A stretch of DNA of 64,000 nucleotides from Lentisphaerota bacterium. Its GTDB lineage: Bacteria > Verrucomicrobiota > Lentisphaeria > Victivallales > Victivallaceae. A program made the translations under genes and the position numbers. The notes beneath the pieces were generated by a model. It was not told the origin of the DNA. It was given only the letters and a program-made list of their open reading frames with translations, and made no database searches. Positions 26,602-31,265 of this stretch are shown here, one piece after another (position 1 is the stretch's first letter; each line of letters begins with the position of its first letter). The stretch is from contig SUWK01000005.1 of assembly GCA_015061525.1 (NCBI GenBank), positions 1 through 64,000 on the forward strand. Direction: 5' to 3'.

Positions 26602-29600
26602 TTACCGATCATCGCCGCCGCGAACGGTGCGAATATCCAAACCAAGACTCTGCATTTCTTTCAGCAACACGTTGAAAGATTCAGGTCTTCCGGCAGTCAG
26701 AACGTTCTGACCTTTGACGATCAATTCATAGATCCGCGAACGGCCCTTGACGTCGTCTGACTTAACGGTGAGCATTTCCTGCAGGTTGTATGCAGCACCG
26801 TAAGCCTCCAGTGCCCACACTTCCATTTCACCGAAACGCTGACCGCCGTGCTGCGCTTTACCACCGAGCGGCTGCTGGGTAACCAGCGAGTAGGGACCGA
26901 CGGCGCGGGCATGGATCTTGTTGGCGACCAGGTGGTCAAGTTTGAGCATGTAGATCTGACCGACCATCACACGCTGATCGAAACGGTCACCGGTACGGCC
27001 GTCGTAAACATCGGCTTTACCGTCGTAAACATAGGAACCGTCGGCCTGTTTCTTGAAGCCCCAGTGATAATTCCTGCCGTTCTCTTCGGCAAAACGCTCG
27101 TTACCTTTTTCCATCATGGAAACGATATCCTGCTCGCTGGCACCGTCAAAGACCGGAGTTGCGACCTTGATACCGAGCATCTTCGCAGCCCAGCCCAAGT
27201 GAGTTTCCAACACCTGACCGATATTCATACGGCTCGGCACACCGAGGGGGTTGAGGATGATATCCACAGGGGTACCGTCTTCAAGGAAGGGCATGTCTTC
27301 CACCGGAACGATCCGGGAAACGATACCTTTGTTACCGTGACGACCGGCCATTTTATCACCGACCTGCAGTTTACGTTTGCAGGCGACATAAACTTTCACG
27401 CGTTTGATGGTGCCCTGTTCGGTCTCGCCGAAGTTCTCATCATCAATAGCGCGCAGACGGGCTTCATTTTCTTCAAAGCGTTCCTTGAAGCTGTCAATAA
27501 TGGCACTGATCGCCGATTTGACTTCGCAATCTTCCATCTGCCACGTCTTATAATGATTGGCAAGTTTCAAAATGGGACTGCGGGTGATCTTGCGGTTGGC
27601 AGGTACGATGACTTTCTGCTCTTCAGAAGCACCGTCAATGATCTGCACCGGCAGTTTGACTCCGAGCAGCTGTTCAGAGAGCCGCTCCGTCAGTTCCGCG
27701 ATAAGTTCGTTGTTGGTTTCACGATAATCGTTGCGGATCTGTTTTTCCTGCGTCTTTTTCTCTGTCTTGGTCATACCGGCTTTGGCAGGCTGATCTTTGA
27801 TATATTCGGCACGGATATCCATAACGATACCGCCCTTACCGCTGGAAACAGTCAAACTTGAGTCTTTGACATCAGCAGCTTTTTCACCGAAGATCGCACG
27901 GAGCAAACGCTCTTCCGGAGCAAGCTCGGTTTCGCTTTTGGGTGTGATCTTGCCGACAAGGATATCGCCGGGTTTGACCTCGGCACCCTCGATTACGATA
28001 CCGCGGCTGTCAAGATTGCGCAAAGCATCTTCGCCGACATTCGGAATATCGCGGGTGATCTCTTCCGGACCGAGTTTGGTATCACGGCTGGTGATCTCAA
28101 ACTCATCGACGTGAATACTGGTGTAAACATCCTCTTTCACCAATCTTTCACTGACAATGATAGCGTCCTCAAAGTTGTATCCGCACCACGGCATGAATGC
28201 CACCAGCACGTTACGTCCCAACGCCAGTTCACCGCCCTGGGTAGCAGCACCGTCTGCGAGCAGATCGCCTTTTTTGACAGCCTGACCGCTGCGGACACGC
28301 GGACGCTGGTTGATGCAGGTACCCGCGTTACTGCGCAGATACTTGTAGAGACGGTACGTACGGCCGGGAACCTCTTCGGTCGGCAGTGAACCATCGGGAG
28401 TGACCACGATACGCTCGCTGTTGACTTCGGCAACAACACCATCTTCGCGGGCAACGATCACGGCACGGGAATCGCGGGCAATGCGCTCTTCCAGACCGGT
28501 ACCGACGTAGGGTGAATCCGGCATCAGCAAAGGAACCGCCTGACGCTGCATGTTTGATCCCATCAGAGCGCGGTTCGCGTCGTCGTGTTCAATAAAGGGA
28601 ATACTTCCGGCAGCGGCACTGACCAACTGCTTCGGAGAAACGTCCATATAATCAATGGTTTCTTTCGGATGCTCGGCTGACTCACCGGCTTTACGGCACA
28701 TAACCATATCACGGACGAAACAGTTGTTTTCATCGAGCAGCGCGTTCGCCTGAGCGATGACGAATTTTTCCTCTTTGTCGGCGGTCAGATAATCAATGGA
28801 ATCAGTGACCTGACCATTGACCACTTTGCGGTACGGAGTTTCGAGGAAACCGTATTCGTTGATGATGGCATACAGTGCCATAGAACTGATCAAACCGATG
28901 TTCGGACCTTCCGGCGTTTCGATCGGACAGATACGGCCGTAGTGCGTGGAGTGAACGTCGCGCACTTCAAATCCGGCACGGTCACGGCTCAAACCACCGG
29001 GACCCAACGCTGAAAAACGGCGTTTGTTGGTCAACTCACTCAACGGGTTGTTCTGATCCATGAACTGGGAAAGCTGACTGCGGGCGAAAAAGTCGCGGAT
29101 CACACCGGCAAACGTCTTGGGATTGATGAGCTTGGAAGGAGAAATATTCGGCTCTTCAAAAGTCATGCGTTCACGGATGAGACGCTCGGTACGGAGCAAA
29201 CCGGCACGGCACTGGTTCTGCAGCAGCTCACCGACAGTACGGACACGGCGTGCGCCGAGGTGGTCGATGTCATCGACCGGACCGTTGGTATGATGCAGCT
29301 CAATGAGCATCTTGGTCGCGGCGATCAGGTCGCGCGGATCAAGGGTACGGAAATCAGCCGGGATATCAAGTTTAAGCCGTTCGTTGAGTTTGTAACGACC
29401 GACCATACCCAGATCGTAACGGCGGTTGTCAAAGAAAAGCCGTTTGATGAGCAGACGGGCGTTGCTCAAGTTGATCGGATCCCCCGGACGCATACGCTGA
29501 TAGATCGCCTTCAACGCTTCTTCCTCGTTGCGGGCAGGATCTTTGCGCATCGTGGCAAAGATGTAATCTTCCTTGGGCGGCACGATCGCCAGTTCAACAC

Positions 29601-30411
29601 TCTCAATGCCATTGGCATGCATATCGGCAAGAGATTTTTCGTTGAGCTGCAGCAGTTCACCGACGATGACTTCTTCAGCCTCGTTAACTACGGAGTCGAC
29701 CGTGTAATATTTGCTCAAGTCTTTTTCTTTGAGCAGAGTACCGATAGAGATTTTCTTCAGAGTGTAAAACTCTTTCAAAATATCGTGGTTGGTCGGATAA
29801 CCGATAGCACGGAAGAACGTCGTAATGTAGAATTTACGACGGCGGCGGCGACGGTCGAGATAGATCTGGATCAAACCGCTCTGGTCGAACTGCACATCCA
29901 TCCAGCTGCCGCGATCGGGAATGACACGGTAACTGTAAAGCATTCTGCCGGAAGTGTGACGGTTCTTCTCAAAGCAGATACCGGGGCTGCGGTGCAGCTG
30001 ACTGATGATAACGCGTTCGGCACCGTTGATAATGAACGTGCCCTGTTCGGTCATGATCGGCACATCGCCCATAAAGACCCGTTCAGGGATCTCCATATCT
30101 TTAACTTTGAGCAGGAAGTTGACATAGAGCGGTGCATCGTAGATTTTACCATCTTTGATGCAGTCGATCACGTCACTTTTCTGCGGGGGACATTCACCGA
30201 TTTCGTAAGAAACGAACTCCAGTGACATGTTTTTGTCGAAACTTTCAATGGGGAAAATATCCATGAAAATTTCCTGAAGTCCCTGCCGTTTACGTTCGGC
30301 AGGAGGTACGAAACGCTGCAGAAAATTGTCGTAGGAATCCACCTGCAGACCGATAAGGTCAGGCATCTCCAGAACATTGCGCAGCTGTCCGAAACTTTTA
30401 CGTTCCGCCAT
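26602..30411 (-). CDS. rpoB: RNA polymerase subunit beta
   Basis: 1269 residues beginning [20 protein letters not shown]. The rifampicin region ([40 protein letters not shown]) matches sensitive wild-type sequences, and the C-terminal [25 protein letters not shown] block is intact. I chose the ATG at 30411 with AAGGTG about 6 nt upstream; a GTG at 30420 is in frame. It follows a 0.46-kb structured spacer after rplL, the usual site of beta-operon control. Confidence 0.97.
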
Positions 30412-30575
30412 TACATTCACCTTACTGTTATGTTAGTTGAAAAAAATATTCAAAAATTTTTCTTCAGAAAAAGCAAAAAACTGCCTTCTTTGGAACAAAC
30501 TCTATACTCAAAACACAAAACAACCGATCTCAAACTTTCCCCTGTGGAAAATGAAATCGGAAAACATTCTCAAAT

Positions 30576-30595
30576 ACGGCAAAAAACCACACCGC
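30576..30595 (-). promoter_or_regulatory. Small hairpin A with conserved loop, rplL-rpoB leader
   Basis: On the transcript: GCGG, 12-nt loop TGTGGTTTTTTG, CCGT (3 Watson-Crick pairs plus a G-U). First of four related elements, in a spacer with no gene. Confidence 0.55.
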
Positions 30596-30620
30596 AACTT
30601 TGAGAAACCTTCCGGCAACC

Positions 30621-30640
30621 ACGGCAAAAAACCACACCGC
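30621..30640 (-). promoter_or_regulatory. Small hairpin B with conserved loop
   Basis: Same stem (GCGG/CCGT) and identical loop as A, 45 nt away. Confidence 0.55.
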
Positions 30641-30708
30641 TGTTATCCGGCAATCTTGTCAGGCCGTTGAAATACGCTCAAATACCGCCTGAATACTTCC
30701 TGAAGGAA

Positions 30709-30728
30709 CCGGCAAAAGACCACACCGG
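30709..30728 (-). promoter_or_regulatory. Small hairpin C with conserved loop
   Basis: Stem CCGG/CCGG (both sides changed relative to A and B), loop TGTGGTCTTTTG with one T-to-C change; 88 nt from B. Confidence 0.55.
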
Positions 30729-30767
30729 CAACAGGAATTCGGAAACTTTTTTCTGCTGAATTTTCTC

Positions 30768-30787
30768 CGGACAAAAAACCACATCCG
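30768..30787 (-). promoter_or_regulatory. Small hairpin D with conserved loop
   Basis: Stem CGGA/TCCG (compensating changes on both sides), loop TGTGGTTTTTTG identical to A and B; 59 nt from C. Confidence 0.55.
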
Positions 30788-30824
30788 CAGAAAAACAAAA
30801 CTCGTGTGCAGATACACGAAATCG

Positions 30825-30853
30825 CGGCGGACGGGGTTTTTACCCCGCCGCCG
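30825..30853 (-). promoter_or_regulatory. Large GC hairpin after rplL (possible attenuator or processing site)
   Basis: 12-bp stem with one bulged base (CGGCGG-A-CGGGGT against ACCCCG-CCGCCG, TTTT on the plus strand as loop), 22 nt past the rplL stop. No T-run follows on the minus strand, so RNase processing or partial attenuation fits better than full termination. A smaller hairpin (TCGTGT/ACACGA) lies at 30802-30819. Confidence 0.6.
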
Positions 30854-30875
30854 TGAATAAATCGAGTAAAATAAA

Positions 30876-31265
30876 TTACTTGACTTCGATCTTGGCACCA
30901 GCTTCTTCGAGCGTGGCTTTGATCTTGTCGGCTTCTTCTTTGGAAACCGCTTCTTTGATGGTCTTGGGCGCGCCTTCGACCAGATCTTTGGCTTCTTTCA
31001 GACCGAGACCGGTGATGCCGCGGATCTCTTTGATCACGCCGATTTTCTTCGCAGCGTCAAAGCCGGCGAGGATAACATCAAACTCGGTTTTTTCTTCAGC
31101 CGGAGCAGCAGCGGCAGCAGCCGGAGCAGCAGCAGCAACGGCGACCGGAGCAGCAGCGCTCACGCCGAGACGCTCTTCGAGGGTTTTGACCAGTTTGGAA
31201 AGCTCCAGGACGGTCATGTTCTCAATGTAGGAAACGAATTCTTCCATTTTGTTTTCTTCGGACAT
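30876..31265 (-). CDS. rplL: 50S ribosomal protein L7/L12
   Basis: Stalk protein recruiting translation GTPases; 129 residues. N-terminal dimerisation domain ([29 protein letters not shown]), Ala-rich hinge of about 25 residues, and C-terminal factor-binding domain ([41 protein letters not shown]). GGAGG precedes the ATG. It lies 21 nt after rplJ. Confidence 0.97.

Follow-up and report, generated by a model that had tools for sequence, protein, structure and literature searches.

In E. coli, the spacer between rplL and rpoB holds an attenuator that separates ribosomal protein expression from RNA polymerase expression (PMC4670729), and attenuation or processing within the spacer, as well as autogenous control, have been reported (Barry 1980; Dykxhoorn 1996, according to the passages of PMC5371410 and PMC4670729 that cite them). 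The coupling of RNA polymerase to ribosome levels is incompletely understood even in this organism (PMC4670729). In Lactobacillales, the Lacto-rpoB RNA motif is a structured RNA whose name links it with rpoB (RF01709; Weinberg 2010, PMC2864571). The hairpin array described here occupies the same spacer as the E. coli attenuator and, like it, places RNA structures between ribosomal protein and RNA polymerase genes. To our knowledge, the E. coli attenuator contains no repeated loop motif; Victivallaceae, in contrast, add hairpins in tandem whose GUGG-UUUU loop is invariant, and only the hairpin proximal to rplL is comparable. The likeness to Lacto-rpoB is that of a structured RNA linked with rpoB by name: RF01709 gave no match in the spacer at E values up to 5, and none in the window or in six relatives at the gathering score.

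Three further systems resemble the array in part. CsrA/RsmA sites consist of several GGA-loop hairpins and, similar to those found here, lie in an mRNA leader with one conserved loop on variable stems; however, the consensus loop of our array, GUGGUUUUUU, lacks GGA, which is present only in a minority of variant loops, and CsrA was found in 0 of 78 genomes of the family. Hfq- or Sm-type U-rich sites share a run of up to six U, but here the GUGG half of the loop is invariant and Hfq was likewise found in 0 of the 78 genomes. ProQ was not found in any of them either, and control genomes were positive for all three proteins. Lambda boxB and the HK022 put RNA are hairpins of nascent RNA that are read by, or on behalf of, RNA polymerase; the likeness is one of working only, and our element differs in having up to four copies and no Rfam match. 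The array is known in kind, as a cis-regulatory RNA of a ribosomal protein/RNA polymerase operon, and new in its loop and multivalent layout.

The array lies in a window of 64,000 nucleotides (the whole stretch of DNA that was analysed), within an rplL-rpoB spacer of about 460 untranslated bases on the minus strand. The features, in order of transcription, are:

30876..31265, minus strand: rplL (ribosomal protein bL12), the gene upstream of the array, from its open reading frame
30823..30855, minus strand: GC-rich hairpin right after rplL, CACGGCGGCGGGGUAAAAACCCCGUCCGCCGCG then AUUUCGUGU, terminator- or processing-like, recurring in relatives
30791..30820, minus strand: terminator-like hairpin, UUCGUGUAUCUGCACACGAG then UUUUGUUUUU, a weak candidate from a consensus scan
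30765..30790, minus strand: hairpin D, first in the transcript, CUGCGGA-UGUGGUUUUUUG-UCCGGAG, from the sequence and a match to covariance model R1 (34.8 bits, E 8e-8); in the minimum-energy fold
30706..30731, minus strand: hairpin C, UUGCCGG-UGUGGUCUUUUG-CCGGUUC, R1 match of 30.0 bits; in the minimum-energy fold
30618..30643, minus strand: hairpin B, ACAGCGG-UGUGGUUUUUUG-CCGUGGU, R1 match of 32.5 bits; in the minimum-energy fold
30573..30598, minus strand: hairpin A, last in the transcript, GUUGCGG-UGUGGUUUUUUG-CCGUAUU, R1 match of 31.9 bits; in the minimum-energy fold
30513..30560, minus strand: distal terminator-like hairpin, CCGAUUUC...GAGAUCGG then UUGUUUUGUGU, kept in many congeners and in sister genus g24
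26602..30411 (approximate), minus strand: rpoB (RNA polymerase beta), the gene downstream of the array, from its open reading frame and sequence

The open reading frame call starts rpoB at GTG 30420; ATG 30411 is the likelier start, with AAGG upstream of it. The array lies well upstream of this start, and a direct block of translation is not apparent. A promoter scan found no sigma-70-type promoter in the spacer, and the spacer is more stably folded than its shuffles (z -5.6). The array, in sense orientation between these two genes, has the position of an rplL-rpoB transcription attenuator.

An earlier note, made from the letters of this DNA, had described four hairpins with one shared loop at this place, a T-to-C change in the loop of copy C, and stems GCGG/CCGT (A and B), CCGG/CCGG (C) and CGGA/TCCG (D). 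All of this was confirmed: the loop, read as the 12-nt UGUGGUYUUUUG on the sense strand of the spacer, occupies minus-strand positions 30772-30783 (D), 30713-30724 (C), 30625-30636 (B) and 30580-30591 (A). The dimensions given in that note, 4-bp stems around a 12-nt loop, need revision, as the stems are usually longer (in the folded spacer, those of copies A, B and D run well past 4 bp) and the true loop is 10 nt. The note also knew of no named element with this loop, and this agrees with our searches: Rfam 15 yielded only tRNAs in the window and no family at the gathering score in six relatives, and the open-licence literature yielded the E. coli spacer attenuator and processing and the Lacto-rpoB motif, but no element having this loop or described in this lineage.

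The 10-nt loop emerges from comparison with relatives. The outer letters U and G of the 12-nt loop also pair, appearing as U-G in 65, G-C in 8 and U-A in 7 of 87 hairpins; because they vary in this way, the true loop is GUGGUUUUUU, with the consensus G-U-G-G-U-Y-U-U-U-U. UGG at loop positions 2-4 and the final UUUU are near-exceptionless, the core accepts single changes and a one-base insertion, and two congeners have an 11-nt form, for example GUGG(U/A)CAUUUU. The pair beneath the closing pair is nearly always purine-pyrimidine. Minimum-energy folds of whole spacers contain 78 of the 87 hairpins.

A covariance model built from the hairpins was run against three sets of genomes: 120 relatives, 78 from the family and 198 from the class. 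We located rpoB in 103 of the 120 related genomes and read most of their rplL-rpoB spacers. In all 27 congeners that yielded a spacer, and also in seven sister genera (g19, g21, g24, g25, g29, g32 and g34), the spacer contains the loop or a closely similar form of it, in arrays of one to four copies, often about 43 nt apart and always sense. Across the 198 class-level genomes, strong model matches fall in rplL-rpoB spacers, the only exceptions being two isolated ones within coding sequence, both antisense to the open reading frame (G039:C51, E 7.7e-5; G135:C39, E 1.7e-4). Weaker matches (E above about 0.003) were considered as copies at other genes and rejected, as all those inspected lay inside unrelated open reading frames. 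Within the window there is no further site with fewer than two mismatches to the loop. Exact copies of TGTGGTYTTTTG number five in the entire 2.83-Mb genome; four lie within these 204 bases, and the fifth has unpaired flanks. Judged by these searches, the array is dedicated to the rplL-rpoB spacer alone.

Families f2-f8 of the order are without the motif, and their spacers are mostly short. The carrier family, f1, to which the Lentisphaeria bacterium of the window belongs, is probably Victivallaceae, as indicated by the labels of the window's nearest named relatives, which are rumen and gut metagenome-assembled genomes (MAGs) labelled Lentisphaerae, Lentisphaeria, Victivallales or Victivallaceae. 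Carriers group together on an RpoB tree with three changes in all (201 residues, several forks weak), and their distribution appears compatible with one gain and two losses. One genome, G049 (SIG80), has two different rplL-rpoB leaders on separate contigs, L149 (G049:C162) and L016 (G049:C124), one with four strong model matches and the other with three; it is probably a mixed MAG.

The stems are almost wholly different between copies and between species, yet pairing is kept. Among 51 distinct hairpins, 90.4% of cells are paired and 165 cells have double changes; the covariation score is 0.983, versus 0.270 after shuffling of columns and at most 0.262 with slid partners, and the helix thus covaries beyond both controls, as is expected of a new structured cis-regulatory RNA. 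Because inexact loops had been admitted to this set partly by a stem requirement, we repeated the test on 63 loops picked on exact loop sequence alone. At least 3 bp form in 59 of these 63, compared to 24.4 when flanks are randomly mispaired (maximum 35 in 2000 trials), and at least 5 bp in 43, compared to 5.6 (maximum 13 in 2000 trials). The first five stem pairs of the 63 hairpins include 34 G-U and no A-C; together with the U-G closing pair, this argues that the sense RNA is the structured molecule under selection, and contradicts a DNA-level palindrome or an antisense RNA. The existence of an RNA element is near certain, and comparison of sequences establishes the array as a structured RNA of the sense strand, selected for both loop sequence and pairing. 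These results bear out most of what the earlier note had proposed. The covariance-model search it outlined recovers the same loop on new pairing stems in relatives' spacers, and the compensating stems seen within the window are matched by covariation over relatives. Neither of its two doubts, that the loop might not be kept in related spacers or might occur at random, is borne out: different pairing stems hold the loop in all 27 congeners and seven genera, and the loop is essentially absent outside the spacer. Its reading as a repeated RNA-binding site is supported by the conserved loop with covarying stems, and from this we infer the binding itself.

The rplL-proximal GC-rich hairpin is present in most spacers inspected, including some from relatives without the motif. 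The terminator consensus scan found two candidates in the spacer versus 1.0 expected in shuffles, which is near background, and the U-tracts of the flanking hairpins are imperfect. In the distal structure (CCGA...UCGG, then a U-rich tail resembling UUGUUUUGUGU), the 3′ tail is kept even where the hairpin tip changes. In several genomes of sister genus g24, the GUGG-UUUU loop sits atop the distal hairpin itself, which ties the motif to a terminator-like structure. Beyond the distal hairpin, several congeners have another small hairpin whose loop contains a run of U (L025, L028 with GGAGUCAGUUUUUUGACUUCC, L034 and L036).

A constant loop on replaceable stems, repeated and confined to one transcript, looks like a docking site for a protein. 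We therefore favor, with moderate confidence, a tandem cis-regulatory RNA for rpoBC whose loops are bound by a trans-acting protein and which acts with the flanking terminator-like hairpins; protein binding and the tuning of rpoBC are the parts of this proposal that we infer. Specifically, every stem-loop would display one identical 10-nt loop, GUGG-U-Y-UUUU, above a stem that can change freely, and the loops would be repeated docking sites for one RNA-binding protein other than Hfq, CsrA or ProQ. Binding may alter the amount of transcription, or of transcript, that passes the flanking hairpins, and the output of beta and beta-prime could thereby be set apart from that of the ribosomal proteins encoded in this operon. 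As the genome yielded no second target, the simplest wiring would be negative feedback, exerted either by a product of the operon or by RNA polymerase.

The hairpins could instead be processing or stability sites, where endonuclease cleavage within or close to the U-rich loops, or a halt of exonucleases, would give rplL and rpoBC separate lifetimes. We consider this unlikely, though the likeliest of the alternatives. The U-rich preferences known for RNase E and RNase Y are less specific than the invariant GUGG half of the loop, and RNase III needs longer stems than some of those present; moreover, a generic ribonuclease site should recur in the genome, and this motif does not. The location of the hairpins between genes of different stoichiometry and their variable stem length nevertheless fit such sites, and the E. 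coli rplJL-rpoBC transcript is reported to be processed (title of Barry et al. 1980, which PMC5371410 cites).

A direct action of the emerging hairpins on RNA polymerase, by pausing or antitermination like the HK022 put RNA and with no separate regulator, is in our estimate rather improbable. The controlled gene would be that of RNA polymerase itself, and terminator-like hairpins stand on both sides of the array, as this explanation would have it; however, a put-like element has no need of up to four near-identical copies, and no other operon has the motif. Pairing of the loops with a trans-acting small RNA is more doubtful still. Identical loops would suit a single antisense partner, but single changes and a one-base insertion occur in the loop core, searches of the family for Hfq and ProQ found neither, and the two congeners whose loops have jointly changed to GUGGWCAUUUU have, beyond the spacer itself, no full-length complement in clearly orthologous positions. 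An antisense small RNA of full complement was accordingly rejected, with none clearly common to both congeners in this search for full-length complements. Spreading palindromic repeats (REP-like) or a functionless chance cluster can be dismissed almost entirely, since the resemblance of tandem intergenic palindromes to such repeats at first sight gives way to one locus per genome, one clade and a conserved loop on wholly different stems, and the many dispersed copies of a REP/BIME family are not seen, four of the five exact loops of the genome lying in one spacer.

Binding of the array by a protein is thus the reading we retain. Hfq, CsrA and ProQ were rejected as readers of the loops, as none of them was found in any of the 78 family genomes; this, the lack of a full-length antisense partner, and the expectation that a generic nuclease or pause site would recur favor another protein. 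More tentatively, the GUGG-UUUU loops, one to four per spacer, may form an RNA code, specific to this clade, that serves RNA polymerase homeostasis: a dedicated putative regulator, possibly RNA polymerase or another operon product, would read them and control rpoBC read-through in bacteria whose genomes yielded no Hfq, CsrA or ProQ. The array is dedicated to the rpoBC transcript, repeated and easily mutated, and it occurs in a lineage where searches recovered none of the three classic RNA-binding regulators; it could therefore serve as a defined bait in the search for a new RNA-binding regulator and allow polymerase feedback to be assayed directly. More generally, post-transcriptional regulation in Victivallaceae may rest on proteins other than these three.
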